Source: Candidatus Eremiobacterota bacterium
GTDB taxonomy: Bacteria > Vulcanimicrobiota > CADAWZ01 > Ess09-12
Assembly (NCBI GenBank): GCA_031082125.1
Contig: JAVHLM010000011.1
Location: 60,142 to 124,141 of the forward strand
Reading direction: 5' to 3'
Length of the DNA: 64,000 nt
Shown here: piece after piece, positions 38,996-62,873 of the stretch
How the letters are laid out: each line of letters starts with the position of its first letter
Numbering within the stretch: position 1 is the stretch's first letter
The notes under the pieces: model-generated
Told to the model about the DNA's origin: nothing
Databases searched by the model: none
Seen by the model: the letters and a program-made list of their open reading frames with translations, nothing else
Position numbers and translations under genes: made by a program

Positions 38996-39072
38996 GGTGC
39001 TGCCTTTCTCCCGCTTTCCCTTACTCTCATTATTACCTATTTTTGACAATGATAAAATCATGAATTTGTAAA

Positions 39073-39108
39073 AAAGGTTAACACAAAGTTTTCTTTTTGT
39101 TAACCTTT
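39073..39108. promoter_or_regulatory. Inverted repeat upstream of giant HD-GYP gene 1
   Basis: Arms AAAGGTTAACA (39073-39083) and TGTTAACCTTT (39098-39108) match perfectly across 14 bases, followed by another TTTAACA. It lies about 80 bp upstream of the ATG at 38995 within an AT-rich 314-bp gap between the two giant genes. The rest of the gap (39109-39309) shows a run of nine A and nothing else recognisable. The likely role is an operator. Confidence 0.55.
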
Positions 39109-39309
39109 ATTTAACAAAACCCGGCCAGCCAGTATCGGCAGCAGAAAAGGGATTATTAAAAAGCCTGAGGAATGGGAATATACGATGACCTATAAAAAAA
39201 AAGCCCATGTCATGAAGCTTTTCATAGATAACAGGACTAAAACCCTTATTGAAATAAGCTGGAGCCACCCATGACAGGAAGATGCGTGCACATTGTCGGG
39301 AATACTGCT

Positions 39310-47000: not shown

Positions 47001-47378
47001 AACATAGGGACCTTGAGCTTCCAGGTGCCCCTCTATGCCATGGCCGCCGCATCGATACTTGAAAAAAAGGGCCTCAAGGCGACGGCGCGCTCCCGCATAA
47101 AGTCGGGCTATGCGCTGCTGAGGAAGCCCGAGTACCTGGCGCAGGACTTCAACGATGACGAGTTCCTTACCTATTTTTCAACAGACAGTGAGCTTATCAG
47201 CTCCCCTGGCGAAGGCCGGAGAAGCTTCCCCCTGGAAACTTCCCTTATCGTGGGGCGCATCCGCGAGGGATGGTTTGTTCCCACGGGCGTCAACTGCGAC
47301 TATTGTGACTACGGCGAAGTGTGCCGCTTCAGGATGGAAGGCGAGGAAGAGCATGGACAGGATAAAGTGGTCTCCTGA
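44046..47378 (+). CDS. addB: AddB-like nuclease/inactivated helicase subunit
   Basis: 1110 aa, normal length for AddB. AddAB processes double-strand DNA ends for recombination. The C-terminal nuclease domain has AGTLIHEILERFYRR, the acidic GKIDRVDVDE, and the catalytic IDYKNSK, then FQVPLYAMA. The iron-sulfur staple is complete: Cys813 in YGRCPFVFF, and Cys1084, Cys1087, Cys1093 (CX2CX5C). No Walker A motif is visible at the N terminus, so the helicase half should be inactive. AGGTGAG precedes the ATG. It overlaps addA by 26 bases. Low sequence conservation in this family is normal. Confidence 0.9.
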   Translation: MNLSPPGVVVHPTIPVLQQAQKDDGRSGHAASLGRRHMLFSGLVDMILATMRERPRDIEFLGQYLLVKTSMEEMRDDEFFSSIIPYRGFIELMVSLITTFREALVTSEDLFRAAPEMGDSCRKYEALAALYREYLTTLREGPAWDRGRHAECDALWDEAGKKMKALELLESPEALPLIDSLEEISFENIYRLSALDFRLITTLAARALRLSPDHPQKITFRLPYDPYRQDAYRYLERTVLQFEHLADSLPPLTLDFLPGGAPEPLLTARDYLKAHLFTPPEDLIEVIPVKADATVRLIRGGDMEDEVAEICREIRVLLEGGAAPRDIVVAFRSLVGYGEIVAQEGKKFSIPFTFPRGNPLLSSHLVRILLAPFRIIGSRFSSREVLEFLSSSFIDCSCLSGSGPPLSESDLDDLVRGAGIVDDGSLPWETALERYRVALIEEEEDEGDRSGKRALLLEKIGRAAAVIASLRAILRPLAQEAPVHRFTGILKGFIRSFEVERNVLAPRAALAGTAWPLDLLQRDMSALEGFVRTLSDIERTFRALRIETKLTTAEFYDLLVESLRGAHMAAPGDQDGIRVLDAYELVGYRAPVLFVGGLAEGSFPVRHSQDVLFPDEEKEEMAAILGRKLFISTAMSHWEDYLLFFNAVNTAENTLYLTHPTRDEKGETLMPSYFLEQVCDLVREEQDGMALVARDTTGARGLPSPSQLFRKADLETYLTYSLWRPAGETGGTDVLPLLGGYLEERNSGGRLEWIFQRCATERHRESFLMAAQDGAHCSFFGAIAQKDLLEHLAQRWGRSHRWSASQLEDYGRCPFVFFMKRVLRVEKAPMPEREIDAASAGTLIHEILERFYRRLRDENLLAARDEGALLNLMRTMADEIFQEWERSRPTGDPHFWEIRKQSILRTLLLWLGYDLKPSPFTPCCFEMEFGTGESGEFSFQGADGLPLLFTGKIDRVDVDESTGSIRVIDYKNSKSQTYKEKIKGKNIGTLSFQVPLYAMAAASILEKKGLKATARSRIKSGYALLRKPEYLAQDFNDDEFLTYFSTDSELISSPGEGRRSFPLETSLIVGRIREGWFVPTGVNCDYCDYGEVCRFRMEGEEEHGQDKVVS

Positions 47379-50300
47379 AAAGGAGCTGGTCTTTCTCTTT
47401 AAAAAAAACCTCTGCGTGAGCGCAGGCGCCGGTTCCGGCAAAACTGCCGCCATCGTGGAGCTTAACTCGCGGTTCCTCTCGGGGGATACGAGCATAGAGG
47501 ACAGGCCCCCTCTCACCATCGACGAGATCCTGGCCATCACCTTCACAGACAAGGCTGCGGGAGAGATGAAGGAGCGCATCAGGAAGATGATTGATGAGCG
47601 CCTCAGGTCTGAAAGGGAACCCCTGAAGCGCCGGCGCTGGATCGATGCCCGGCGGGCCCTCCTCTCTGCCCATATCAGCACCTTTCACTCCTTCTGCCAC
47701 AGGATGCTCCGTGAGCATCCCCTCGAGGCCGGCATCGACCCCCGCTTTGAGGTGGCCCGGGAAAAACAGGCTGCCGCCCTCCTCGAGGAGTGCGCCACAA
47801 GGCTGGTGCTTCAGAAGATACAGGCCCGCGACGCCACGGCGACGCAGCTGGTTATGGATTACGGCATGACGGCCCTTGTCAGGATGCTCATGGAGACCCT
47901 CGCCACTATCCGATCTTCAGGCGAGAGCACTGCCATCCTTGAGGATCATTTCCACACCCATGAGGAAAAAGCACTGAGGGACCTCGAGGATGCCAGGGGC
48001 CGCCTGGTGGCAGCACTCGCTGCCATATTTGACGCAGTAAGGACAGGCCAGGTCAAAAAAGAGACAAAGTTTGCCGATGCCGCCGCAAGGCTCTCTCCCT
48101 CCTTTCCCTCCCTGGAGCAGGCCATACTTTCTCTTTCAGCGTCATCTCCATCAGGAAACCTCAAGATCCTTGATGAGCTCCACGGGTTTCTGAAGGGCAG
48201 CGTTCCGGCAGCGGTAAAAGGCCTCTGCGCTGAAGGGAAGGCCATCGCTGACCCGAAGGCGGGCGAGATCATGCTCATATGGAGGTTTTTCCAGTCCCTG
48301 CCCATGCAGCATGCCTTTGCCTCACTCCTCTCAGAGCTTGAAATCGAGTACCGCCAGGAAAAAAAATCCATGGCCCTGCTGGACTTTGACGACCTTCTGC
48401 GCCTGGCCTGCGATATGCTCAGGAACAATAAGACTCTCAGGAGAAAATACAAGAAAGCCTACCGGGTGATCCTTGTCGATGAATTCCAGGACACCAATGA
48501 GCTTCAGAGGGAGATCGTCTACCTGCTTGCCGAGAAGGAGGGAGATGAGCACAGCCCCGCTCCCGGTGACCGCCCCGAGAAGATTGCCCTTGAGCCGCGG
48601 AAGCTTTTCGTCGTGGGAGACGCCAAGCAGTCAATATATCTCTTCAGGGGCGCCGACGTGGAAGTCTTCTCCCGCGTCATAGACGATGTGAAGAGCAAGG
48701 GGGGAGAAGTGGTCTCCTTCTCGGAGAATTTCAGGACTCTCGATGCCATCCTGGAAGTCATCAACCCTCTCTTCGGGAGCCTCATGCAGGGAGGCACAGG
48801 CAGTGCCTTCATAAGGTTCCAGGACATGGACCATCTCAGGCCCAGGAGGCAGTATCTGCTGAAAGAGAGCCGCGTGGAGCTCATCCTCACCGCCGATGAA
48901 GGCTCCGCTTCAGCCCGGAGGGCCCTGGAGGCTGATGCCATAGCAAGGAGAATATGCCTCCTTGGCGATCCCTCACTGGGTGTCACCGTTATCGACGAGG
49001 ATGAAGAGGGGAATCCTCTGCAGCGCCCTGCCCAGCCGGGAGACGTGGCACTCCTTTTCAGGACCCTGACCCATGTGCGATCCTATGAGCAGGCGCTCCG
49101 CGCGTACAATATCCCTTATTATCTTGTGAAAGGACGGGGATTCTTCCGCTGCCAGGAGGTTCTGGACATACTGAACGTGCTCAGGTACCTGAGCGGCATC
49201 CACCGTGACGTGAGCCTTGCAGGGGTGCTCCGCTCGCCTCTTTCGGGTACCAGTGACGAGACGCTTATAAGGCTCGCCATGGCAGCACAGGGCTTATCTT
49301 TCGCAGAGGCCTTCAGGTCTCGCAGGTATCCCCCCCTCCCGCACGAAGAGCACATGAAGCTCACAAGGACAGCGGAAATACTCTCAAAGCTGGAAGACCT
49401 CAGGGATACCCTTCCTGTCGGGGAGCTCATCGGCGAGATCATCTCATCCTTTGACCTCGAGGCGGTGCTCCTGTCAACCTTCCAGGGAGCGCAGAAGGTG
49501 GCCAATATCCGCAAGCTCGTGAACATCGGGAGAAGCTATGAAAAGGGCACAGTCTCCACCCTTGAGGCCTTTGTGTTCCAGATGGAGAAGGAGGTAAGGG
49601 AGGAGTCCCTTGAGGCGGAAGCGCAGCTTCTCGGGGAGCTCGAGGGAACCGTCAAGATTATGACCATCCACCAGGCCAAGGGCCTTGAGTTCCCCGTCGT
49701 GATAGTGCCCGACCTCGGAAGAACCGAGCCAGGCAGGACCAGGCCCCTCGCCTATGCCCCGGGGAGAGGCATCGCCTGCCGCTATATCGACTCAGAAAGC
49801 GGAGATGCCTATGACAATTATCTTTACAAGCTCATCAAGGATGAATACGGCGAAAAGGAACAGGCTGAGTCCCTCAGGCTCCTTTACGTTGCCCTTACCA
49901 GAGCCCGTGATTACCTTGTTCTGACGGGAGCTCCCATCGGGAAAAAGAAGGAAGGGACCTGGAGGGAGAAGATCCACGGATTTCTCGGCCGGGAGGTGAT
50001 TGATTCCTTCACCGCCTCAGGCGAGACGGAAAAAGAAGTGATCCTCTCCAGGGAGGGAGCTTCATTCCCGAGACGTTACAATGGCACGGTGAAGCTCCTC
50101 AAAGAGCAGGCCCTGTCGTTATCGCGGCCGCGGCGGGAGCTTGCCCCCGTTGATGCGGAGCCTTCACTTGCCCATCCCGGCAGTACCGGAAAAGTTGAGG
50201 AAAACCCTGACGAGGCACTGCCGCTTTTCAGCAGGGAGCTGGACAAAGGCACCGGCGACCTCGTCCTGGCGCGGTGCCTGGACTGCAAAAAGCCCCTGCC

Positions 50301-51075
50301 TTCAACGCTTTTTCTCACTCCCACCCACCTGCTCACCTTTCACGCCTGCGAGAGAAAGTATCTTTACGACAGCCTCATGCGCCATGGTGAAGGGGCGGGG
50401 ATGCCCCTGGACAGCCAGTCGCCCGAGGAGATCAGGGAAGCCCAGGGCTGGGCCATGCACCGCATTCTCCAGGAGCTGGACTTTCTCAGTGACAGGGAGA
50501 CCCAGCGAGGGGAGCTGGAGCACCAGCTCCTTAAAATCGGCCAGGGAAAGCCGGATCTTTTCAAAAGGACGAAGCACATCATGCAAGCCGTGCTCAGGTT
50601 CCTTGATGCCCCTGAGACAGCCAGGCTGGGCTTTTTTGACGCCAAAGCCCGCCTTTACAGGGAGCATCCCTTTTTCCTGAGGGTCGAAGCGGGCGTCGAG
50701 GTGTTCCTCCACGGCACGATAGACTTGATTATCGACGGCGGCAAGGGGCCCGTTCACCTCGTGGATTACAAGTATTCACACGCTGACAAGGATAAGCCCT
50801 CTGATTACCGCATCCAGCTCCTCTCTTATGCCATGGCGGTGAAAAACACCCTGCCGCACCGCGATCTCGATGCCTTCCTGATCTTTATGAGCGACGATTC
50901 CGTGGAGTTCCGCCAGGTTGACGTGGCAGATGCCGCCCTTGGACGGTTCCGGGAATCCCTCGCTCTTGCCTGCGGTAAGATGCGGGACCGGGCGGGAGAG
51001 GAAGAATGGCCGATGGCAGAGAGAAAAATATGCACAGGGCTGTCGTGCCCTTACAGGGCAAGGTGCTGGTATTGA
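47353..51075 (+). CDS. addA: AddA helicase-nuclease
   Basis: 1240 aa from ATG 47353, preceded by GAGGAAGAG; the longer in-frame stretch from 47155 lies inside addB. UvrD-type helicase motifs in order: AGAGSGKT (24-31), ITFTDKAAGEM, STFHSFCHRML, VILVDEFQDTNE, VVGDAKQSIYLFRGAD, FSENFRT, IMTIHQAKGLEFPVV, LLYVALTRARDYL. The C-terminal RecB-type nuclease has GTIDLIIDGG and VDYKYS (Asp1138, Lys1140) followed by IQLLSYAMAV. It unwinds and degrades DNA ends with AddB until a Chi-like site. Its stop overlaps the -35 box of the caspase operon promoter. Confidence 0.95.
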   Translation: MDRIKWSPEKELVFLFKKNLCVSAGAGSGKTAAIVELNSRFLSGDTSIEDRPPLTIDEILAITFTDKAAGEMKERIRKMIDERLRSEREPLKRRRWIDARRALLSAHISTFHSFCHRMLREHPLEAGIDPRFEVAREKQAAALLEECATRLVLQKIQARDATATQLVMDYGMTALVRMLMETLATIRSSGESTAILEDHFHTHEEKALRDLEDARGRLVAALAAIFDAVRTGQVKKETKFADAAARLSPSFPSLEQAILSLSASSPSGNLKILDELHGFLKGSVPAAVKGLCAEGKAIADPKAGEIMLIWRFFQSLPMQHAFASLLSELEIEYRQEKKSMALLDFDDLLRLACDMLRNNKTLRRKYKKAYRVILVDEFQDTNELQREIVYLLAEKEGDEHSPAPGDRPEKIALEPRKLFVVGDAKQSIYLFRGADVEVFSRVIDDVKSKGGEVVSFSENFRTLDAILEVINPLFGSLMQGGTGSAFIRFQDMDHLRPRRQYLLKESRVELILTADEGSASARRALEADAIARRICLLGDPSLGVTVIDEDEEGNPLQRPAQPGDVALLFRTLTHVRSYEQALRAYNIPYYLVKGRGFFRCQEVLDILNVLRYLSGIHRDVSLAGVLRSPLSGTSDETLIRLAMAAQGLSFAEAFRSRRYPPLPHEEHMKLTRTAEILSKLEDLRDTLPVGELIGEIISSFDLEAVLLSTFQGAQKVANIRKLVNIGRSYEKGTVSTLEAFVFQMEKEVREESLEAEAQLLGELEGTVKIMTIHQAKGLEFPVVIVPDLGRTEPGRTRPLAYAPGRGIACRYIDSESGDAYDNYLYKLIKDEYGEKEQAESLRLLYVALTRARDYLVLTGAPIGKKKEGTWREKIHGFLGREVIDSFTASGETEKEVILSREGASFPRRYNGTVKLLKEQALSLSRPRRELAPVDAEPSLAHPGSTGKVEENPDEALPLFSRELDKGTGDLVLARCLDCKKPLPSTLFLTPTHLLTFHACERKYLYDSLMRHGEGAGMPLDSQSPEEIREAQGWAMHRILQELDFLSDRETQRGELEHQLLKIGQGKPDLFKRTKHIMQAVLRFLDAPETARLGFFDAKARLYREHPFFLRVEAGVEVFLHGTIDLIIDGGKGPVHLVDYKYSHADKDKPSDYRIQLLSYAMAVKNTLPHRDLDAFLIFMSDDSVEFRQVDVADAALGRFRESLALACGKMRDRAGEEEWPMAERKICTGLSCPYRARCWY

Positions 51076-51100
51076 CATCCCATGTGTGGTAGAATATATA
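51072..51100 (+). promoter_or_regulatory. sigma70-type promoter of the caspase-ankyrin operon
   Basis: Perfect TTGACA (51072-51077, overlapping the addA stop), 17-bp spacer, TATATA (51095-51100). Predicted start near 51107, leader about 37 nt to ATG 51144. It shows the caspase operon can be expressed apart from addBA. Confidence 0.8.
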
Positions 51101-51143
51101 TACCATTCACTGGGGGTGCTTTACCGATGAAAGGAGAGATGCC

Positions 51144-52877
51144 ATGAGACAGTCAAAGAATTCAATGACTGCAGCGATCCTGGCGGCGCTGTTGTTCCTT
51201 GCACTCTCCCTCCCGCCCGGGGCCCATGCCGCGAAGCAGGGGACCAGGTGGGCCATCGTCGTCGGGATAAACAAGTATATGAAAGAGGTAACACCCCTTC
51301 GCTGCGCGGAAAATGACGCCCTCCAGGTCAAAAACGCCCTGATGAAGTACGGGGGGTTCAGCGAGGATAACATTTTCCTCCTCACAAGCGACCAGAAGGG
51401 AAACAGGATGCCCGACAAGGGCACCATAGTAAGGTGGCTTTCATACATAAAGCAGAACGCGAAGCCCGACGATCTCTTCGTGTTCTTCTTTTCAGGCCAC
51501 GGGATGGACATGGAGAAGGAGAGCTTTCTCCTCACCATGGAAAGCGATCCTTACAGCCGGGAGACCCTGGAGGAAAGCTCCCTCAAGGTCTCAAACCTCA
51601 GGAAATACCTGGAAGAGATGCCGGCGGCAAAAAAACTCCTTTTTATAGATGCCTGCCGGAATGATCCCCGTTCAGGAAAGGGCGAAAAAGATAACCTCCT
51701 CACTGACGATTTTGCCAAGAGGCTGAAAATCAGGGCTCCCCTGCAGGCAAAGCCGGCGCAGGCCGGCATCGAAGGTGGTCCTTCGTTTAATTCCACCTTC
51801 TTCTCCTGCAGCAGGGAGCAGCGCTCTTATGAATGGAGCGAGAAATCGATGGGGTTCTTTACCTACTACCTGGTGGACGGCATGAAAGGCAGCGCCGCCG
51901 ACGAGAAAGGGAATGTGACCCTTCACTCCCTTGATTCCTACCTGGGACAGAAAGTGGCATCGGCGGTGAAAAGGGAGCGGGGCTCGGAACAGAGGCCCTT
52001 CAACCAGTCAGAGGGCTCCGGCGGCTACCTCTCTTTTGTCCTCTCCAGGCCGGGAAAAGTGAATGATTCAGAACCGCATGGGGTGCAGCCCGTGGAAACG
52101 CCGGTGTCGCAGAATCCCGTCCAGCCTGCGGGGCAGGGAACGGTGAACACCACCTATGGGAATCCCTCGATAAACGCAATTCTGATTAATATGTATGATA
52201 GACAGGATATGACTAAATATTCTGAAATCATGGCTTCTTTCCAGAACAACCCCAATGCAGTGAACAAACAGGAACTCCTCAACTACTTTAGCGAGCTTAC
52301 AAAGAATTCCAATACCATGGCCATAGTGAATTCATATATACAGAACGGCTGGAACGTGAATGAGCAGGACACCACGGGTGGCACTCTGCTTCATCATGTG
52401 GCAATGAGGGGTGATATGGAGACGGCGAAACTGCTTATCAAGAACGGCGCCAACATTAACGCAAAAGGATCCAGTGAAATTACTCCCCTTTATATGGCTG
52501 TTTCTAATGGCCAGAAGATTATGGCTCTCTTCCTCATAGAGCAGGGAGCAGACTGTATGGCAAAAACGAAGCCTGTTCCCAATACCGACGATCTCGGAGG
52601 GCATACCCCCCTGCACGTGGCAAGCGCTATCTGTGACGGTGAGGTAGTGAAAGCGATGCTCGACAAGGGCGCTGACGTGAACGTGAGAAACAGCATAGGT
52701 TCCACCCCGCTTCACAATGCCGCTGAAAAGGGAAATATCGATGCTGCAAAGATACTTCTCCAGTATCATGCCGATATCAATGCAAAAGTCCAGAGCCTGA
52801 CACCTCTTCAGCTCGCCCGTGCGAAAAACCAGCAGAAGTTTGCCGAGTTTCTGCAGTCGCAGGGAGCCAGGGAATAA
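51144..52877 (+). CDS. Exported caspase-like peptidase with ankyrin repeats (A)
   Basis: 577 aa. Signal peptide 1-29 (hydrophobic core AAILAALLFLALSL, cleavage near AHA-AK). Peptidase C14 (caspase p20-like) domain at about 33-260: WAIVVGINKY, catalytic His119 in FFFSGHGMD, catalytic Cys171 in FIDACRNDPRSG, then FFSCSREQRSYEW and FTYYLVDGM. A Pro-rich linker and a poorly defined segment follow (about 295-390), then about five ankyrin repeats (395-575; HTPLHVASAI, GADVNVRNS). Cysteine peptidases of this fold cleave after Arg/Lys or Asp. First gene of the operon. Close paralogue of the gene at 54368. Confidence 0.92.
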   Translation: MRQSKNSMTAAILAALLFLALSLPPGAHAAKQGTRWAIVVGINKYMKEVTPLRCAENDALQVKNALMKYGGFSEDNIFLLTSDQKGNRMPDKGTIVRWLSYIKQNAKPDDLFVFFFSGHGMDMEKESFLLTMESDPYSRETLEESSLKVSNLRKYLEEMPAAKKLLFIDACRNDPRSGKGEKDNLLTDDFAKRLKIRAPLQAKPAQAGIEGGPSFNSTFFSCSREQRSYEWSEKSMGFFTYYLVDGMKGSAADEKGNVTLHSLDSYLGQKVASAVKRERGSEQRPFNQSEGSGGYLSFVLSRPGKVNDSEPHGVQPVETPVSQNPVQPAGQGTVNTTYGNPSINAILINMYDRQDMTKYSEIMASFQNNPNAVNKQELLNYFSELTKNSNTMAIVNSYIQNGWNVNEQDTTGGTLLHHVAMRGDMETAKLLIKNGANINAKGSSEITPLYMAVSNGQKIMALFLIEQGADCMAKTKPVPNTDDLGGHTPLHVASAICDGEVVKAMLDKGADVNVRNSIGSTPLHNAAEKGNIDAAKILLQYHADINAKVQSLTPLQLARAKNQQKFAEFLQSQGARE

Positions 52878-52888
52878 GGAAATCCAAT

Positions 52889-54355
52889 ATGATGACCTTG
52901 AGGCATATTATTGCTTTTCTCTCTGTAATTGCGGCAACCAGTTTACTCTGCCCCGGCAGCGGAAGCTGTGCCTCGCGGGAGTGCGGCCATGATACGGCGT
53001 CAGTCATTCCTGACGCAAGGCCGGTGAAGCCTCTTATCACCCCGGGCGTCAAGGTCCCTCCCCCTGTTCCGTCGCCCCTCCCTTCCTGTGCCCCTTCAAG
53101 GCAGGGCGATCTCGATGACCGCTTCGTATGGGCCGTCTTTTTCAAGGACCTTGAAAAAATGAAGTCCCTTCTTGAGGAAGGCGCCAATATCAACGGGAGT
53201 GACAGGACGGGGATGCCGGCCCTGGTGAACCTCTGGAACGGCAGACTCTCCGATTACGGGCAGGTGCTTGATTTCCTCACATCTCATGGCGCCGATATCA
53301 ACGTAAGGGACAGCTCAGGCCAGACCATCATTCACCGCATGGCCTGCGAAATGAATTTCAACAGGCCTCTCTATGACTACCTTGCGGCCCACGGCGCCAA
53401 CCTTGATATCGCCGACAATGACGGCTACACGCCCCTTCTCTGGGCAGTGGCTTTCAGCAACGAGAGGATGGTTCGCCTTTTGCTGGCGGGAAACGCCGAC
53501 ATGACGGCAAAAAACAAATACGGGCTCACGGTCCTGGAGAGCGCCAGGCTTGCCGATAACAAGAACATCCTGCGCCTCCTTGGCGGGAAGATGGAAAGGA
53601 AAGCGATGGGAGTCCCTCCTTGCATGCTCCTGGACCTTAACCCGCAGATTAACACGCACCTGCTCACCCTTTACCAGGGTTTTGACGTGAAGAAACTCCA
53701 GAAATCGATGGCGGCCTTCCAGGCCAATCCAGGCCCCGCCACCACGGAGAAGCTGCTCGCGTGCTATGCTCCATTGAAAAAAAACAACCTGGCTCGAAAA
53801 GTGAGAATGAGCATCCAGAAGGGCTGGAGTGTCGATGAAGAGGACTCTTCAGGCGGTACCCTTCTCTACCATGCAGCCCTGGTGGGCGACCTCGCCACGG
53901 CAAAGCTTCTCATTGAGAGCGGTGCCGATATCAATGCCAGAGGGGCCTGCGGCATGACTCCCCTTTATGCCGCCGTCACCAATAATCAGAAGGAGATGGT
54001 CCTTTTCCTGCTGAAAAAAGGCGGCAGCTCAATGACGAAAACAGAAGCAATCCCTTCAACGGGCGATCTCGGCGGAAACACGCCCCTCCATATGGCTTCA
54101 ATGTTCTGTGACAGAGAAGTTGTGAAGGCCATGCTTGACAGGGGCGCCAAGGTAAATGTAAAAAACGTCACAGGCGCCACTCCTCTTCATTTCGCAGCCC
54201 GATCCGGCAACATGGAAGCAGCAGCCCTGCTTATCAAAAGAGGCGCCGATATCAATGCCAGTGCCCAGGGCCTCACGCCCCTCCAGATTGCGAGAGCCTG
54301 CAACAGGGAAAAGTGCGCCCGCTTCCTTAAGGCCCGCGGGGCAAAAGCGCCATAG
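52889..54355 (+). CDS. Exported ankyrin-only protein, mosaic of both caspase partners
   Basis: 488 aa. The N-terminal hydrophobic segment (about 5-24) is a signal peptide; Cys residues follow it but no clean lipobox. There is no peptidase domain. Residues about 75-225 match the ankyrin part of the second caspase (FVWAVFFKDLEKMKSLLEEG; DSSGQTIIHRMA). Residues about 250-488 match the ankyrin part of the first caspase (SSGGTLLYHAALVGDLATAK; DLGGNTPLHMAS; EVVKAMLDRGAKVNVKN). It thus joins both binding modules and may be an adaptor, inhibitor or substrate collector for the two caspases. It starts 12 bp after caspase A. Confidence 0.9.
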   Translation: MMTLRHIIAFLSVIAATSLLCPGSGSCASRECGHDTASVIPDARPVKPLITPGVKVPPPVPSPLPSCAPSRQGDLDDRFVWAVFFKDLEKMKSLLEEGANINGSDRTGMPALVNLWNGRLSDYGQVLDFLTSHGADINVRDSSGQTIIHRMACEMNFNRPLYDYLAAHGANLDIADNDGYTPLLWAVAFSNERMVRLLLAGNADMTAKNKYGLTVLESARLADNKNILRLLGGKMERKAMGVPPCMLLDLNPQINTHLLTLYQGFDVKKLQKSMAAFQANPGPATTEKLLACYAPLKKNNLARKVRMSIQKGWSVDEEDSSGGTLLYHAALVGDLATAKLLIESGADINARGACGMTPLYAAVTNNQKEMVLFLLKKGGSSMTKTEAIPSTGDLGGNTPLHMASMFCDREVVKAMLDRGAKVNVKNVTGATPLHFAARSGNMEAAALLIKRGADINASAQGLTPLQIARACNREKCARFLKARGAKAP

Positions 54356-54367
54356 GAGGTCATTCCG

Positions 54368-55891
54368 ATGAAGCTGAACAGATGCATTGTGCTCGCTGCC
54401 CTGCTGGCAGCGGCTCTGTTATACTGTCTGCCTGCAAGGCCCGCTCCCGCGGTGGAACAGGGACGGCGTTGGGCTATCGTCATCGGCATAAACAGCTACT
54501 TCAAGGAAGTCTCGCCGCTCCATTGTGCCGTCAATGATGCCAGGGAATTAAAAAAGGCACTCATTGAAGTGGCAGCCTTCAAGGACGATGATGTATTCCT
54601 CCTCACCAGCGAGCAGAAAGGAAACCGGATGCCCGACAAGGGCACCATCATCCGCTGGGTGTCCTACATCAAGTCACAGGCAAAGGCCAGTGACACCTTT
54701 CTCTTCTTCTTCTCGGGTCATGGGATGGACATGGAAAAGGAGAGCTATCTTCTCACGATGGAGAGCGACCCCTACAGCAAGGACACCCTCGAGGAGACAT
54801 CCCTCAAGGTCTCGAACCTAAGGAGATATCTTGAGGAAATGCCTGCAGGGAAAAAAATCATCATCATTGACGCCTGCAGGAACGATCCACGCTCAGGGAA
54901 AGGCGACAAGGACAACGTCCTTACTGAATCATTTGCGAAGAGGCTCAAGCTAAAAGGCCCCATGGAGGCGAAACCGGGCAGCGCCGTACCAGCGGGAACC
55001 ATGGCATTCAACGCCACTTTCTTCTCATGCAGCAGGGAGCAGCGCTCGTATGAGTGGTCTGAGAATTCCATGGGCTTTTTTACCTATTACCTGGTGCAGG
55101 GCCTCCGCGGCGGCGCAAAGAACACAAAAGGTGCCGTCACCGTCAAATCACTGGACGAATATCTTGGATTGACTGTGGCACAGGCAGTAAAGCGCGAGCG
55201 TGGAAGCGTCCAGGCGCCATGGATAACCCTCGATGGCACCTCAGGAGGCCTGGAGTTCGCCCTTGCCCATCCTCAGGGCTCCGGCTACGTGGTGCCTTCT
55301 CCCGCTACCCTGACCACTGAAGCCCCCCCTCCCCCTGTATATGCCACCCCCGCGCTGCCTTCCATAGCACCCGTTCCTCCACCGGGGCAGGGGACGCTGG
55401 AGAATGACTTCGTATGGGCCGTTTTCCATAAGAACATGGATGATATCAAATCACTGATTGCCAGGGGAGCCGATGTGAACGGAAGGGATATAAATGGAAT
55501 ATCGGCTGTGGCGAACCTTTACAATCGCGATTTTGAAGAATACAAGCCGGTGCTTGATTACATTCTGCAGCATGGCGCAGATATCAATACAAGGGATTCC
55601 TCGGGACAGACGATTCTCCATAGAATGGCGTCAGGAGATACATTTCCCAGGGATTTTCTGGAATATCTTATCACTCATAAAATAGATATCAACGCCGCGG
55701 ATAACGACGGTTACACGGCGCTCCACTGGGCCGTCACCTTCAATAACGAGAAAATCACCGCTTTTCTTATTTCAAAAAAGGCCAGCATCAATATGAGAAA
55801 CAAAAGCGGCGACACCCCTCTGGGAATAGCCAGTATCAGGAAATACGAGAAGATAACGAGAATGCTCCGTGAAGCAGGGGCAAAGGAATAA
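54368..55891 (+). CDS. Exported caspase-like peptidase with ankyrin repeats (B)
   Basis: 507 aa; TAGGAGG precedes the ATG. Signal peptide about 1-27 (IVLAALLAAALLYC core). Caspase-like domain about 33-260 with His118 in FFFSGHGMD and Cys170 in IIDACRNDPRSG. Long stretches are identical to caspase A around the active site (QKGNRMPDKGTI, LLTMESDPYS), so the two arose by duplication. A Pro-rich linker (about 300-340) leads to four or five ankyrin repeats (345-507; VWAVFHKNMDDIKSL, DSSGQTILHRMA, DNDGYTALHWAV) that are of a different subtype from those of caspase A. Confidence 0.92.
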   Translation: MKLNRCIVLAALLAAALLYCLPARPAPAVEQGRRWAIVIGINSYFKEVSPLHCAVNDARELKKALIEVAAFKDDDVFLLTSEQKGNRMPDKGTIIRWVSYIKSQAKASDTFLFFFSGHGMDMEKESYLLTMESDPYSKDTLEETSLKVSNLRRYLEEMPAGKKIIIIDACRNDPRSGKGDKDNVLTESFAKRLKLKGPMEAKPGSAVPAGTMAFNATFFSCSREQRSYEWSENSMGFFTYYLVQGLRGGAKNTKGAVTVKSLDEYLGLTVAQAVKRERGSVQAPWITLDGTSGGLEFALAHPQGSGYVVPSPATLTTEAPPPPVYATPALPSIAPVPPPGQGTLENDFVWAVFHKNMDDIKSLIARGADVNGRDINGISAVANLYNRDFEEYKPVLDYILQHGADINTRDSSGQTILHRMASGDTFPRDFLEYLITHKIDINAADNDGYTALHWAVTFNNEKITAFLISKKASINMRNKSGDTPLGIASIRKYEKITRMLREAGAKE

Positions 55892-55916
55892 TATGCGCTC
55901 TCCAGGAGGAGAACCT

Positions 55917-57989
55917 ATGAGAATGTCAAAATGGCTCTTTCTATTTATCCTTATATTCGCCGCCCTTTTTTCCCCCCGCGCAGCCGAGGCCGGCACCAGA
56001 AAAGCCCTCCTCATAGGGGTGAACGAATATACCGCCGTGAGAAACTGCAACCTCCTGGGCTGCGAAAATGATACGGACCTGATGAGCCATCTCCTGACCA
56101 TGAAATATGGTTTCAAGAAAAATGACATCAAAGTCCTCAGGAGCAGGGAAGCCACTCTTAACGGCATAAGAAGAGCCCTGGAAGAGTTTCTGACCTCAAT
56201 TGCACCCGATGACACCGTAGTGTTCTTCTTCAGCGGCCATGGCACCCGGACCAACGACCTTAACGGTGACGAGCCTGACGGCTATGACGAGGCCCTCTGC
56301 CCCCGCGATGCCGTGGCGTCCCTCACTGCCCCCCGGAATCTCCTCCTTGACGACGAGCTCGGGAGCTTCCTCGGGAGAATCCCTGCCAGAAATCTCACCG
56401 TGATCCTGGACTGCTGCTTCTCGGGGACTGCAACCCGTGCCCTCTCCGATACAGGCACCAAGGGCCTGCAGGGAGGGTTCCTTACCGAGGCGGTAAAGAA
56501 AAAGATCAAATTCATGAATCCGGGAGACTTCAACGAGGCAGTCCCGGCCTCAGGTAAGAGATTCTTCGATACCCGCGCAAAATCAGGCTCCAAAGAAGCG
56601 GGGACCTCCATCATTCTCCCGTGGGTGGTCATCTCGGGATGCGCCTCCTATGAAAAATCCCAGGAGAGCAGCATTGAGGTCAAAAACAGGACCTTCCCCT
56701 GCGGCCTCCTTACAAAGCACCTTTTCAGCTATCTGAGTAATAATCCAAAAGATACCTACGAAGATTCCTTGAGGGAGATCAAAAGAGCCGTAGTGGCAGA
56801 GAACCCTTTGCAGACTCCTCAGCTCGAAGGCAATTACCTCTTCAGGGGGTTCTTCAAAGAAGGGTTTCCCCAGGCAGCATCATCGGAGCCCAGGGCACGT
56901 CCTCCCGTTCAAAGTCCTCCCGTGCAAAGTCCTCCCGTGCAAAGCGACCCGGTGAACAGCGTGACAGCTGTCAATGGTGCAACTGCTACAATAAGCACAG
57001 GAGCAGGTACGGGCATCACAAGCGGTTCTCTCCTTGCCGCTTACCCTCCCGCTTCCACAGGTGTTGAAAAATCATCAAGCATCGGTCTGCTGAGAGTGAA
57101 GACTCTTGATGCAGTCTCGTGCACCGCCGATATCATTGAAGGCCTGGGTCGTGTAGTCCCCGGCTGCCCGGTCAGGGAGAAAACGAGGGTATATGCGAAT
57201 GCGCCCGTCACTGTTGCAATAGAAGATTTTACAGGAGCTGATGGGATCGCGGCGAAACTCGGGGCCCTTCCCTATGTGAAGGTTGAAAGAGGGAATTCCG
57301 ATGCTGACCGTCTTATCCTCCCTTCTCTCAATGGAGGCGGCTATGGCCTTTATGCCCCCGATTTCACTCTGCTGCAGGACTTCAGGAGAGAATCTCCCGG
57401 GGCCATTGCGGCTGCCGCCGCACCGAGCCTCAAGTCCGCTTACTACATAAAATGCCTGGGAAACCTCCGCAACCCCCTGGAGCCCTTCTCGGTGAAACTG
57501 GACCTTGATGAAGACAAGCCCGTCTATAAGGTGGGCGATCAACTGGGCGTCACCTTCAGGACCGATGAGGACTGCCATCTTATTCTCCTCCATGTCTCTT
57601 CAGACGGGCTCATATCGGTAATCTTTCCCAACAGGTATGACAGCGAGAGCTTCGTGAAAAAAGGCCGGAAATACACCATCCCCCCTTTCAGGGATGGAAA
57701 GTTTCTCTTCACTTACAGGATTGCCGGGCCTTCGGGGCAGGAGATGATCAAGGCGATTGCCACGAGGGAGTATATCGATCCATGGGGAATTGATCCGAAG
57801 AGCCTCAGGAGCGCCTTCAGGGAGATCGAAGGAGACCCTGTGGCCCTTATGAAAAAGCTCCTGGAGACCCTCAGGCAGAAGCTTGAGGGCACAGGCCAGG
57901 GCCCGGGGGGAGGAGTCTCCCTTCCCGTGGGAGCGGGGGACAGGGCATCCTGGGCCACCGACGGCGTCACCTACGTGATAGAGGAGTAA
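55917..57989 (+). CDS. Exported metacaspase-type peptidase with DUF4384-like domain
   Basis: 690 aa from ATG 55917, which follows AGGAGGAGAACCT; an in-frame ATG at 55869 overlaps the previous gene. Signal peptide 1-25 (FLFILIFAALF core, AEA-G). Peptidase C14 domain about 28-310 of the type I metacaspase kind: LLIGVNEYTAVRNCNLLGCE, His108 in FFSGHGTRTND, Cys167 in VILDCCFSGTATR. A short linker with PPVQS repeats follows. The C-terminal region (about 520-630) fits DUF4384: VKLDLDEDKPVYKVGDQL, EDCHLILLHVSSDGLISVIF, FPNRYDS. Its substrate preference probably differs from caspases A and B. Confidence 0.9.
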   Translation: MRMSKWLFLFILIFAALFSPRAAEAGTRKALLIGVNEYTAVRNCNLLGCENDTDLMSHLLTMKYGFKKNDIKVLRSREATLNGIRRALEEFLTSIAPDDTVVFFFSGHGTRTNDLNGDEPDGYDEALCPRDAVASLTAPRNLLLDDELGSFLGRIPARNLTVILDCCFSGTATRALSDTGTKGLQGGFLTEAVKKKIKFMNPGDFNEAVPASGKRFFDTRAKSGSKEAGTSIILPWVVISGCASYEKSQESSIEVKNRTFPCGLLTKHLFSYLSNNPKDTYEDSLREIKRAVVAENPLQTPQLEGNYLFRGFFKEGFPQAASSEPRARPPVQSPPVQSPPVQSDPVNSVTAVNGATATISTGAGTGITSGSLLAAYPPASTGVEKSSSIGLLRVKTLDAVSCTADIIEGLGRVVPGCPVREKTRVYANAPVTVAIEDFTGADGIAAKLGALPYVKVERGNSDADRLILPSLNGGGYGLYAPDFTLLQDFRRESPGAIAAAAAPSLKSAYYIKCLGNLRNPLEPFSVKLDLDEDKPVYKVGDQLGVTFRTDEDCHLILLHVSSDGLISVIFPNRYDSESFVKKGRKYTIPPFRDGKFLFTYRIAGPSGQEMIKAIATREYIDPWGIDPKSLRSAFREIEGDPVALMKKLLETLRQKLEGTGQGPGGGVSLPVGAGDRASWATDGVTYVIEE
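56901..56960. repeat. 15-bp coding tandem repeat (PPVQS units)
   Basis: Three near-identical 15-bp units (56901-56915, 56916-56930, 56931-56945) and a diverged fourth (56946-56960, DPVNS) encode a flexible linker between the metacaspase and the rest of the protein. Confidence 0.85.
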
Positions 57990-58023
57990 GGGGAAACTCA
58001 TACGGCACAAGGAGGATCATCAT

Positions 58024-59067
58024 ATGCACATCGCCGGAAGCCTGACAAAAATTGCAGGAATAGCGCTCCTTATTCTCCTGTGGTGCTCAACGACCGTCCT
58101 GGCGAAGTCTTACCTGATAAGCGGCGAAAACCTCGGCAGGGATGCTGAATGGGCACGCTTCTCAGTAAAAATACAGACGGCAAAGAAAGCATATATGACC
58201 GGTGAAAATGTCGTGGCCACTGTCACGGCAGACCGCGACTGCTATTTCCTTGTTTATTGCACCAATGAAAGCGGCTTCTGCCTCATAATCTATCCAAATC
58301 AATACGCGGCGAAAAACACCCTCAAGGCCGGCGAAAGCCTGGTGCTGGGCGATGATCCACAGGGATCGTTCTCCCTCGAGGTGCAGCCGGAGAAGGAAAG
58401 GGACTACCTCCAGGTCATCGCCACAGAGGAGCCCATCAGCACTGCATCCCTGGCCGGCATCACCGACCCCGCGGAATTCGTAAAAAAAGTGCGGATGATC
58501 CTCCGTGAGAGAGTGCTCAGGCATGCGGCGAAAAGGGAGCATACCGGCCCGGCAGCCCTCTCTGAAAGAGTTTTTGCCATAGGAACCACCGATTACACCT
58601 GCAATTACGATTCATATTATCCACCGGGCGTCGAGGCGCCGACGACGCCCCCCATTGTAGCCGATACCAAGGCGCCGGTGATTGAGATCCGCAGGGTGGA
58701 AGCGCCTGCAAAAGCAGTATTCCTCGTGGGTCCCGATGCCCCCTCTGTGAAACAAATGAAAAACAATATCTATATAGTGAACAGTACCTCGGCAGTGATA
58801 ACGGGAACAGTCACGCACCGCAGCGGGATCAGGAAAATCCTGGTAAACGGCACTCCCCCCACCATAAAGCGCATCGGTGCCACCAAGGCTTCCGCTCCCG
58901 GAGAAAAAAGGATAGTCATCGAGGAGGGGAGGGAAGTCCCCGTTCCGGTGCTGGATTTCGAGTATGAGCTCAAAGGGCTGAGCCCTGTCCCCCGGGAGGT
59001 CATTGTGACTGCAGAAGGCCTCGACGGCACGGTGACAAAAGAGGTGCTCAGGCTGAGAAAGAATTAG
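58024..59067 (+). CDS. Exported DUF4384-like protein
   Basis: 347 aa; AAGGAGG precedes the ATG. Signal peptide 1-27 (GIALLILLWCSTTVLA). Residues about 45-150 match the DUF4384-like region of the preceding metacaspase (FSVKIQTAKKAYMTGENV, RDCYFLVYCTNESGFCLIIY). Residues about 220-347 form a beta-rich region with Ig-like alternation (VIEIRRVEAPAKAV, ITGTVTHRSGIRKILVNG, REVIVTAEGLDG). No catalytic motif. As a stand-alone copy of the domain fused to the metacaspase, it may bind the same ligand or surface. It precedes mprF by 11 bp. Confidence 0.82.
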   Translation: MHIAGSLTKIAGIALLILLWCSTTVLAKSYLISGENLGRDAEWARFSVKIQTAKKAYMTGENVVATVTADRDCYFLVYCTNESGFCLIIYPNQYAAKNTLKAGESLVLGDDPQGSFSLEVQPEKERDYLQVIATEEPISTASLAGITDPAEFVKKVRMILRERVLRHAAKREHTGPAALSERVFAIGTTDYTCNYDSYYPPGVEAPTTPPIVADTKAPVIEIRRVEAPAKAVFLVGPDAPSVKQMKNNIYIVNSTSAVITGTVTHRSGIRKILVNGTPPTIKRIGATKASAPGEKRIVIEEGREVPVPVLDFEYELKGLSPVPREVIVTAEGLDGTVTKEVLRLRKN

Positions 59068-59078
59068 GACGAGGTCGT

Positions 59079-61637
59079 ATGGTCAAGAAGCTCTCGGGAT
59101 TAGCTGCGCCTGCCATCAGCATCATTCTCTTTTTCGTGGCCCTCAGGACGATAAGCCACCTGCTGAGAGAGCACAACTACCACGATATAATAAGCTATCT
59201 GAAAGCCATGCCGGCATTGCACGTCACCGTGGCGGTCATTCTCACCATGCTTGGCTACTTCACCCTCACATTATATGATTTTCTGGCGCTCCACTACGTA
59301 AAATTCAACCTGCCTTATAGAAATATTGCCCTTGCCTCCTTTATCAGCTATGCCTTCAGCAACACCATTGGATTCTCATTCCTCTCAGGGGGCTCGGTGC
59401 GCTACCGCCTCTATACCTCATGGGGAATCCAGGCCCTTGATATCGCGAAAATCCTGGCATTCTGCAGCGCAACTCTCTGGCTCGGCTTTTTTGCCATTGC
59501 AGGCACTGCTTTCACGCGGGGAAACATAACCGTGCCGGCAGGCGTCCACCTGCCTTTCCACTCTTTGCATGCTCTTGGCGCCCTTTTTCTCATGGCCGTT
59601 CTTGGATACCTTGTGCTCTGCACCTCGAAGAAAAGGAGCTTCTTGATCAAAAACCTGGAATTCACCCTCCCCCGCTTCTCCATGGCCTGCGCCCAGGTGG
59701 TCCTCGCCTCCCTTGACTGGCTCGTGGCGGCAAGCGTTCTCTACATTCTTCTTCCCCAGGGCGATCCCGTCAACTTTTTCCTTTTTATAGCCCTTTTCCT
59801 CCTTGCGCAGATCGCGGGGGTAGCGAGCCAGGTCCCCGGCGGCCTGGGGATTTTCGAGTCTGTCATGATGCTCCTGCTTGGCCCCTCCTTCAACGGATCG
59901 CAGCTGATTGCCTCTCTTCTCGCTTTCCGTCTGATATATTACCTGCTCCCTCTCATCGTTGCTGCAGCCCTCCTGGGAATCCAGGAGATTCTCCACAGGA
60001 AGGAGTCCATGAAGCAGCTTGCCGGGACCCTCAGTCAATGGATCCCTGCAATTGCACCCTATGTACTCTCCCTGGCAACCCTTATCGGCGGAGCCACCCT
60101 CCTCTTCTCGGGGGCTCTTCCTGCCGACAAGCATCGCATAAGACTTCTTGTCGAGCTTGTGCCGCTCCCTGTCCTGGAGATATCACATTTCCTCGGGAGC
60201 CTCGTGGGAACAGCACTCCTCCTGCTCGCCTGGGGCATTCAGCGCCGTATTGATGCCGCCTATCATCTGACAGTGGCCCTTCTCTGCTCAGGGATAGTAT
60301 TTTCCCTTCTGAGAGGCCTCAATTACGAGGAAGCGCTAGTGCTCCTTGTGATGCTTCTCGCCTTGCTCCCGGCAAAGCAGCAGTTTTACAGGAAATCATC
60401 GCTCACTTCAGCATCCTCACCGATTCAATGGGCCTCGCTGGTGATCATCATCCTGTTGTGTTCTCTCTGGCTTGGCTCCTTCTCGCACAAGCATGTGGAA
60501 TACTCCCATGAGCTCTGGTGGAACTTCAGCCTGAAAGGCGATGCACCACGCTTTTTGCGGGCATCCATAGGTGCCGTGGCCTTGCTGCTCTTTTTTGCCA
60601 TTGGCAGGCTTTTCAGGCCTGCCGCACCGTCGCCAGGCCCTCCCTCGGCGGAGGACCTGGCAAAAGCCAGGGCAATAGTGGAAGCCTCGCCGAGGACTTA
60701 CCCCTCTATCTCGCTCCTTGGCGACAAGAATTTTCTCTTCAGCGAAAGCGGGCGCTCCTTTCTCATGTTCGGCACCCATGGCAGGACCTGGGTAGCCCTG
60801 GGGGACCCCGCCGGCCTTGAGGAGGAAAAGGCCGAGCTCACCTGGCAGCTCAGGGAGCTCGTGGACCGCCACGACGGCAGAACAGTCTACTACGACGTGC
60901 AGCGTGAATACCTCCATCTCTATGTGGACCTGGGCCTCACTCTTCTCAAGCTTGGAGAAGAAGCCCGCGTGCCCCTCGGCTCGTTTTCCATGGAGGGAAG
61001 CTCTCGAAAAAAGTTTCGAAACCTTATCAGCAAGCTTGAGAAGGAAGGCTCTTCTTTCGAGATTCTCCCGAAAGAAGAGGTGGTTGCGCTGCTCCCCGAG
61101 CTGAAAGCGGTATCAGACGCGTGGCTTGCCCATAAAAATACCAGGGAAAAGAAATTCACCCTTGGAAACTTCAGCAAGGCTTATCTTTCCTGTTTTCCCG
61201 CCGCCATCGTCAGATATGAGGGCAGGATCATGGCCTTCGCCAATCTCTGGACCGGCGCAGGGAAAGAGGAAATCTCCATTGATCTGATGAGGTATATTCC
61301 AGAAGAGGCGCCTTCAGGGGTGATGGAATATCTTTTCATAAAGCTCATTGCCTGGAGCAGCCAAGAGGGGTACCGGTGGTTCAACCTGGGGATGGCGTCC
61401 CTTTCAGGCCTCGAGGACAGGGCCCTGGCTCCCCTCTGGAACAGGCTGGGATCTGCAGTGTTCCGCCATGGGGAGCACTTTTACAATTTCCAGGGGCTCA
61501 GACAGTATAAGGAAAAGTTTGATCCCCTCTGGGAGCCCAAGTATATCGCCTATCCAGGCGGGCTTACCCTTCCTTCCATCCTTGCCGATATTGCCTTTCT
61601 CACCGCCGGAGGCATCAAAGGAATCGTGGCAAAGTAA
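59079..61637 (+). CDS. mprF: MprF: aminoacyl-phosphatidylglycerol synthase/flippase
   Basis: 852 aa, normal for the family. The N-terminal two thirds form the membrane flippase (about 14 segments over 1-535) with the hallmark SNTIGFSFLSGGSVRYRLYTSWG and SQVPGGLGIFESVMMLLLG. The C-terminal cytosolic DUF2156 domain (about 555-852) has SFLMFGTHGRTWVALGDPAG, LGLTLLKLGEEARVPL, KFTLGNFSKAYLSCFP and FNLGMASLSGLEDR. It transfers lysine or alanine from tRNA to phosphatidylglycerol and flips it, lowering surface negative charge. It ends the caspase operon, linking envelope charge with the exported peptidases. Amino-acid specificity cannot be told. Confidence 0.95.
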   Translation: MVKKLSGLAAPAISIILFFVALRTISHLLREHNYHDIISYLKAMPALHVTVAVILTMLGYFTLTLYDFLALHYVKFNLPYRNIALASFISYAFSNTIGFSFLSGGSVRYRLYTSWGIQALDIAKILAFCSATLWLGFFAIAGTAFTRGNITVPAGVHLPFHSLHALGALFLMAVLGYLVLCTSKKRSFLIKNLEFTLPRFSMACAQVVLASLDWLVAASVLYILLPQGDPVNFFLFIALFLLAQIAGVASQVPGGLGIFESVMMLLLGPSFNGSQLIASLLAFRLIYYLLPLIVAAALLGIQEILHRKESMKQLAGTLSQWIPAIAPYVLSLATLIGGATLLFSGALPADKHRIRLLVELVPLPVLEISHFLGSLVGTALLLLAWGIQRRIDAAYHLTVALLCSGIVFSLLRGLNYEEALVLLVMLLALLPAKQQFYRKSSLTSASSPIQWASLVIIILLCSLWLGSFSHKHVEYSHELWWNFSLKGDAPRFLRASIGAVALLLFFAIGRLFRPAAPSPGPPSAEDLAKARAIVEASPRTYPSISLLGDKNFLFSESGRSFLMFGTHGRTWVALGDPAGLEEEKAELTWQLRELVDRHDGRTVYYDVQREYLHLYVDLGLTLLKLGEEARVPLGSFSMEGSSRKKFRNLISKLEKEGSSFEILPKEEVVALLPELKAVSDAWLAHKNTREKKFTLGNFSKAYLSCFPAAIVRYEGRIMAFANLWTGAGKEEISIDLMRYIPEEAPSGVMEYLFIKLIAWSSQEGYRWFNLGMASLSGLEDRALAPLWNRLGSAVFRHGEHFYNFQGLRQYKEKFDPLWEPKYIAYPGGLTLPSILADIAFLTAGGIKGIVAK

Positions 61638-61659: not shown

Positions 61660-62787
61660 CTATCTGAGGCCCTTGGGCACCCAGCCGTAATGATTGTAAA
61701 GGCTGAAAGCCTGGCGGTAGTAAACCTGCGCCTGCTTTTTCAGGCCCCTGGCTTCACTGACTCGTGCGGCATAATAGACGGGAAGGGGATTCTCCCCGCA
61801 CTCTTTGATGGCCCGGGAAAAATATGACGCGGCGAGCTCCAGCCCCTCGGGGCTCTTTTTCCCGTTCCTGAGGCCTCCGGGAGCCCATTCGCCCCGGTAG
61901 AAATAAAACATGGACATAAGAAAAGGCACATCGCATGAGAGCACTTCCCGTGGTGCCACGGGCACCCCTGACGTGGTGCGGTAAGCGGTGATTATCCTGT
62001 CAGGCCCTTCATAGATGGGGTTGTAGTACCGATAGCTGGTGCCGGTTTTGCAGAAGAGGCCGCGGTGGCATGCAAAGGGCGTCTTCTCAGATGCATCGAC
62101 GGTCACATCGAAGGCATCGGAGAGCTTCAGGAGCACAAGGGCATGGCCATTGTTGGATTCCTCGCCCCGCTCATTCCTGTACACCATCACTACTCCGGCA
62201 TCAAGCCCCATTTCCTGGAGAATTCCTGCGATCAGGACCGACTGGAGGAAACACTGGCGCTCGCCGTATTTCATGACATTGACGAATTCAAAGCCCCTCT
62301 CGAGGCTGAATTTAGGAATGACGGCCTTCACGAGGTGGTGAACCCCCGCGGCACACCTGAGCTGCTCCTCTCCCCTCTTTGTCTCATCGGAAATGGAAGC
62401 GAAATGGATATCGGACTTTTTCAGGAAGTCCCTGAAGTCGTATTTCTCAAAAGCGCCGAACGGGAAGGCTCCCGCATTGACAGAATCATCCCTCCACCGG
62501 GCATAAAGCCCTTCAAACCATGAATAGAACTCCTCATCGCTCCCCTCGCCGCATTCATCGCAGGAGTTCTTTATAAAGAGGCTGAACTGCTCGCTTCCGT
62601 AAGGGTACCGGATAATTGAGCTCCTGTCATCCCTGTCCCACGGGGTTAAAGGGCATCCTCTTATTAACGATCCCGCAGCGATGAGCACCGCTATCACAAT
62701 AATGACTACCACTACAAAAAGCCTTAAGCGGCGGGCCTTGTAATCCCTGGCCGTTTTGGAGCTCTTTTCCATGCCCTGCCCTGCCAT
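61660..62787 (-). CDS. Transglutaminase-like membrane-anchored protein with TPR-like tail
   Basis: 375 aa from ATG 62787; a likely TATAAT at 62879-62874 argues against in-frame starts further upstream. One membrane segment (about 22-40) puts the rest in the periplasm. The core (about 140-235) has the Cys-His-Asp order of transglutaminase-like papain-fold proteins: ERQCFLQSVLIAGIL (Cys179), NNGHALVLLKL (His215), VTVDAS (Asp231). Further Cys-rich segments suggest disulfides. The last 60 residues (LELAASYFSRAIKECGENP, YYAARVSEARGLKKQAQVYY) resemble TPR helices. It may cross-link or hydrolyse proteins or peptides in the envelope. Function unproven. Confidence 0.75.
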   Translation of the reverse strand: MAGQGMEKSSKTARDYKARRLRLFVVVVIIVIAVLIAAGSLIRGCPLTPWDRDDRSSIIRYPYGSEQFSLFIKNSCDECGEGSDEEFYSWFEGLYARWRDDSVNAGAFPFGAFEKYDFRDFLKKSDIHFASISDETKRGEEQLRCAAGVHHLVKAVIPKFSLERGFEFVNVMKYGERQCFLQSVLIAGILQEMGLDAGVVMVYRNERGEESNNGHALVLLKLSDAFDVTVDASEKTPFACHRGLFCKTGTSYRYYNPIYEGPDRIITAYRTTSGVPVAPREVLSCDVPFLMSMFYFYRGEWAPGGLRNGKKSPEGLELAASYFSRAIKECGENPLPVYYAARVSEARGLKKQAQVYYRQAFSLYNHYGWVPKGLR

Positions 62788-62873
62788 AATTGAGAACCCC
62801 TTAATTGAAAAGGCGAAGGGTTTTCGGGCTGCCTTGTAGAAGGCAGTAATATTAAGCCTTTCCCTTTTCATGC

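Follow-up and report, generated by a model that had tools for sequence, protein, structure and literature searches.

What could a bacterium do with three caspase-like proteases, an ankyrin protein, a protein built on a domain of unknown function, and the membrane enzyme MprF, all encoded side by side and five of the six looking exported? The question is raised by six same-strand genes, here called A to F (51144-61637, + strand), in a 64,000-nucleotide stretch of a Candidatus Eremiobacterota genome (assembly GCA_031082125.1, contig JAVHLM010000011.1; hereafter the window, whose numbering is used unless another locus is named). By Pfam and NCBIfam matches, their domain order runs caspase (C14)-ankyrin, ankyrin only, caspase-ankyrin, caspase-DUF4384, DUF4384, and MprF, which bears out the gene calls and domains given in an earlier note on this DNA. 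Our tentative answer, held with slightly less than even confidence, is that the set forms an envelope proteolysis module in which exchangeable address domains are attached to caspase cores and the ankyrin-only protein B acts in trans.

The most distinctive member of the set is gene B (52889-54355, +), which encodes an exported-looking, ankyrin-only protein of 488 amino acids (aa). It lies between two exported-looking proteases, A (51144-52877, +; 577 aa) and C (54368-55891, +; 507 aa), each of which carries an ankyrin domain behind its caspase core (52194-52874 in A, at the C terminus; 55367-55867 in C). The N-terminal half of B (53069-53584) aligns with the ankyrin domain of C (47% identity over 167 aa; 160.6 bits), and its C-terminal half (53672-54349) aligns with that of A (54% identity over 225 aa; 263 bits). 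When the halves were compared against the 242 ankyrin-type matches in the genome, the next match among those listed scored 37 bits for the N-terminal half, and the runner-up for the C-terminal half scored 89.6 bits. Judged by these alignments, the sharing of domains between A and B and between C and B is not due to chance, and B is a composite that joins the ankyrin domains of both neighboring proteases but has no protease of its own, a new arrangement that the earlier note overlooked. The caspase halves of A and C are themselves 63% identical, and their ankyrin halves are 30% identical, which is about the level of unrelated ankyrins.

The proteases A, C, and D (the last a caspase-DUF4384 protein of 690 aa when read from the ATG at 55917, which follows a ribosome site; 55917-57989, +) score 76.5, 88.6, and 87.0 bits, respectively, against a curated C14 cutoff of 21.4 (E values of 3e-21 for A and 2e-24 for D). 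Each has an intact catalytic dyad, as had been claimed for all three: His119 (51498-51500) and Cys171 (51654-51656) in A, His118 and Cys170 (54719-54877) in C, and His108 and Cys167 (56238-56417, numbered from ATG 55917) in D. In each, an Asp, the acidic S1 residue, lies two residues before the Cys; the C14 domain, the His/Cys dyad, and this Asp are all held in common with prokaryotic caspase homologues and orthocaspases (PF00656). Asp at this position is a feature of basic-specific metacaspases and orthocaspases, and we infer that A, C, and D would cut after Arg or Lys. Exported Arg/Lys-specific cysteine proteases of clan CD include the gingipains (C25) and clostripain (C11); these belong to different peptidase families, and any likeness to A, C, and D would be one of working mode only.

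Two observations bear on how the caspase cores relate to the domains behind them. In the predicted structure of A (built from 48 sequences), the caspase and ankyrin domains are both modeled confidently, and the linker between them (residues 310 to 357) is disordered; rigid inhibition of A in cis by its own ankyrin domain was considered and set aside, as the model has no confident interface (predicted template-modeling score [pTM], 0.57). In addition, a caspase on contig 12 of the same genome (L011 5409-6839) is 52% identical to the caspase half of C but has a CBM_4_9 domain in place of the ankyrins, and such a swap behind the same catalytic core fits a role for these domains as addresses. The contig 12 gene sits near a kinase-like gene and an FHA-ABC transporter gene.

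The other recurring element of the set is DUF4384, which here meets an exported-looking C14 domain both in the same protein (D, DUF4384 at 57522-57770, E value of 9e-20) and next door, in gene E (58024-59067, +; 347 aa; DUF4384 at 58192-58434, E value of 8e-13), itself exported-looking. Across 148 genomes of the phylum, taken to be Eremiobacterota, DUF4384 occurs in 11, all of them among the 26 genomes with C14 (hypergeometric P of 6e-10, phylogeny ignored), and 13 of 19 DUF4384 loci are linked to C14 (8 by fusion and 5 as separate adjacent genes), among them an independent operon-like run in a related genome (G050:C83; L245 6300-10736) ordered DUF4384-caspase-caspase-DUF4384. The first caspase of this run also has a match to B_lectin below the cutoff. 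Pairs of a stand-alone DUF4384 gene and a caspase-DUF4384 gene recur in the phylum. A pair and a trio are also seen at L142 (an E-like gene followed by a D-like gene) and in Candidatus Zipacnadia (L074; DUF4384, DUF4384-caspase fusion, and caspase), respectively. Because the linkage recurs, we regard the D/E pair as the conserved core of the set. A plasmid search with D returned partial caspase matches only. The fusion itself is already known from 23 cyanobacterial orthocaspases (PMC8283722) and from alphaproteobacterial proteins with a QC dyad (PMC6426788); D differs from these in its full His/Cys (HC) dyad, its export signal, and the extra stand-alone, exported-looking DUF4384 protein encoded beside it. 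The structural model of E is confident for the DUF4384 part only (a beta-sandwich with a predicted local distance difference test score [pLDDT] of about 90), and its matches in the PDB are weak immunoglobulin-like sandwiches (best E value, 0.05); as such, the fold assigns no function to DUF4384.

The proteins encoded by A to E all begin with signal-peptide-like sequences, as the earlier note held, and their predicted export would place them in the envelope of a diderm cell, since Omp85 and secretins are encoded in the genome. Export is far from peculiar to this locus. All nine C14 genes of the genome look exported, with either signal-like or lipoprotein-type N termini: besides A, C, and D, they include the contig 12 protein, which has a signal sequence, a contig 1 protein with WD40, a contig 47 protein with Ank and WD40 (both with signal-like N termini), and three lipoprotein-type caspases on contig 14 (L010 4639-12608; lipobox-like LSGC, VAGC, and INGC), two of which have TIG domains. 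The contig 14 genes lie on one strand as a second caspase cluster, split by an aminotransferase-like gene on the opposite strand. Furthermore, a signal-like N terminus is present in 73 (about 83%) of 88 A/C-type caspase relatives, which come from Poribacteria, Acidobacteria, Planctomycetes, Armatimonadetes, and others, by a crude rule that 32 to 37% of control open reading frames pass as well (odds ratio, 8). Caspase export thus seems to be the norm for this lineage, and the contrast that had been drawn with mostly cytosolic bacterial caspases is weakened. A 2012 survey had already noted N-terminal helices that might be signal peptides and had proposed extracellular or fratricidal roles (PMC3501461), so the novelty of an envelope reading is smaller than the earlier note held.

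The six genes appear to be expressed together. They are separated by gaps of 11 bp (A-B), 12 bp (B-C), 25 bp (C-D), 34 bp (D-E), and 11 bp (E-F), and each is preceded by a purine-rich ribosome site; the C-D gap assumes that the ATG at 55917 is the best start of D, as an earlier in-frame GTG would make D overlap C. Upstream of A, a promoter-like site (TTGACA-N17-TATATA, 51072-51100, +) overlaps the stop codon of addA within a 68-bp gap. The + strand of the window holds just eight sites this good, which makes one in that gap unlikely to be due to chance; a scan with a stock sigma-70 consensus did not list it, because that scan requires the -10 element to end in T, and here it ends in A. In keeping with the one good promoter claimed earlier, A to F form one predicted operon, which would give a single transcript. 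The genes addB-addA (44046-51075) point the same way as the set and could be read through into it, and a convergent gene (61660-62871, -) places its end at F. The product of the convergent gene (403 aa) has a membrane-anchor-like segment and matched nothing in Pfam or NCBIfam.

Put together, the module that we propose would work in the envelope, in the periplasm or at the surface. The C-terminal domains would serve as address tags on a flexible linker, bringing the caspase core to protein or glycan targets, and B, working in trans, would be an adaptor or a competitor that sets where or when A and C act. The DUF4384 proteins would be scaffolds or sensors for the caspase, and MprF would be a late addition, altering membrane charge under the same promoter. 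The most likely use of the module would be a response to envelope damage or to attack by competitors.

Several observations weigh against this proposal. Export was judged by simple sequence rules (a positive n-region, a hydrophobic core, and small residues at the cleavage site). Of 29 canonical ankyrin contact positions, A and B agree at 8, versus 89 of 132 positions elsewhere (P of 1e-4), which argues against B binding exactly the ligand of A through that surface, and B as a decoy competing for that ligand by its canonical contact face is not favored on this ground; when set against other surface positions (17 of 35), the difference is not significant (P of 0.12). For C and B, the corresponding counts are 11 of 29 and 62 of 126. 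B may instead have different ligands, link targets together, or contact the enzymes through a face other than this one. That B is a dedicated trans regulator of two exported caspases, a bacterial counterpart in the envelope of those regulators of animal caspases that consist of a prodomain alone, is possible, if doubtful.

The complete set also fails to recur. A search of relatives with A, C, D, E, and F, of the genome itself with B, and for the C14, DUF4384, and MprF families found the six-gene order in 0 of the 148 phylum genomes, among which there is no relative of the same genus or family. Of the gene set whose conservation was in question, the caspase and DUF4384 core is retained and the full complement is not; by these comparisons, the set consists of an exported-looking caspase-DUF4384 core, ankyrin genes particular to the lineage, and mprF as an addition. 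Gene F (59079-61637, +) encodes a bifunctional MprF of 852 aa (flippase plus aminoacyl-phosphatidylglycerol synthase) that scores 924.5 bits against NF033480 (bifunc_MprF; cutoff, 600), carries LPG_synthase_TM and LPG_synthase_C, and matches MprF in the PDB with an E value of 8e-174. It is a multipass membrane protein without a cleavable signal. It has the full flippase and synthase in common with known MprF but stands last in a caspase operon, and no full-length copy was found in the other 147 phylum genomes. Its best plasmid-borne relatives, from haloarchaea, Pseudomonadota, and Fusobacteria, are 40 to 45% identical, which suggests acquisition from outside; MprF is probably a lone, acquired addition. 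Of the earlier proposal that envelope proteolysis is coupled to a change in surface charge, the envelope part stands, and the link to charge amounts to co-location in one genome, since full-length MprF is found nowhere else among the phylum genomes searched.

This absence of a conserved full set is also what would be expected if the locus served unspecialized extracytoplasmic proteolysis, for turnover or nutrients, expanded in a large genome, with the ankyrins and MprF as chance neighbors of an ordinary caspase-DUF4384 pair. The genome, of 7.4 Mb, does encode nine caspases that look exported and has ankyrin-like stretches numbering about 240, but the tight gaps and the one promoter-like site, the specific domain sharing of B with A and with C, and the recurrence of the caspase-DUF4384 linkage all speak against it, and we consider it somewhat unlikely. 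As an aside, so many ankyrin-type matches in a genome of this size are unusual for a free-living bacterium and may be a sign that it meets eukaryotes or other cells.

An alternative role for B is suggested by Bdellovibrio, in whose envelope the exported ankyrin protein Bd3460 provides self-protection by binding two endopeptidases; it bears a signal peptide, is encoded next to one of these enzymes, and inhibits the pair (PMC4686830). By analogy, exported A, C, and D would attack prey or competitors and would be inhibited in the periplasm of their own cell by the ankyrins, in cis by those of A and C and in trans by B. B is likewise an exported-looking ankyrin protein encoded beside exported-looking enzymes, lying between A and C with one half related to each. 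However, B is made of two different ankyrin domains, one in common with each neighboring protease, and so resembles caspase-fused ankyrins; Bd3460, by contrast, is a free protein, and the enzymes that it inhibits belong to another class. The CBM_4_9 domain that takes the place of the ankyrins in the third paralogue fits targeting better than inhibition, and the model of A, with its disordered linker and no confident caspase-ankyrin contact, likewise offers little to inhibition in cis. Self-protection of this kind therefore seems unlikely to us. A cytosolic-type anti-phage or abortive-infection caspase system is very improbable: PADLOC caspase and ankyrin models match A to D, but weakly and as generic models, E and MprF have no PADLOC match, A to E bear export signals, and the set contains neither an NTPase, TPR, CRISPR, or nucleotide-signaling partner gene nor the cytosolic caspase with a defense-type sensor gene that marks such systems.

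Elsewhere in the window, GC (guanine-plus-cytosine) content rises to as much as 62% at 18001-20000, versus 55% window-wide, and two neighboring genes (33758-43746, -) encode proteins of 1,767 and 1,478 aa with low-complexity N termini and near-identical C termini that, by eye, resemble HD-GYP.

The 2012 survey described operons holding as many as three caspases, as well as operons with surface functions; it met multi-caspase operons in just four other bacterial groups, and its text makes no mention of ankyrins (PMC3501461). Bacterial caspases have mostly been discussed as cytosolic effectors of death or defense; this genome, whose phylum is uncultured, and those of its relatives suggest that a large class of caspases, so far little studied, seemingly works outside the cytoplasm. 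As a recurring partner of caspases, DUF4384 gains a lead to the function of a domain that has none assigned, and the composite B yields a clear claim as to how a protein acting in trans might guide exported caspases or hold them back.

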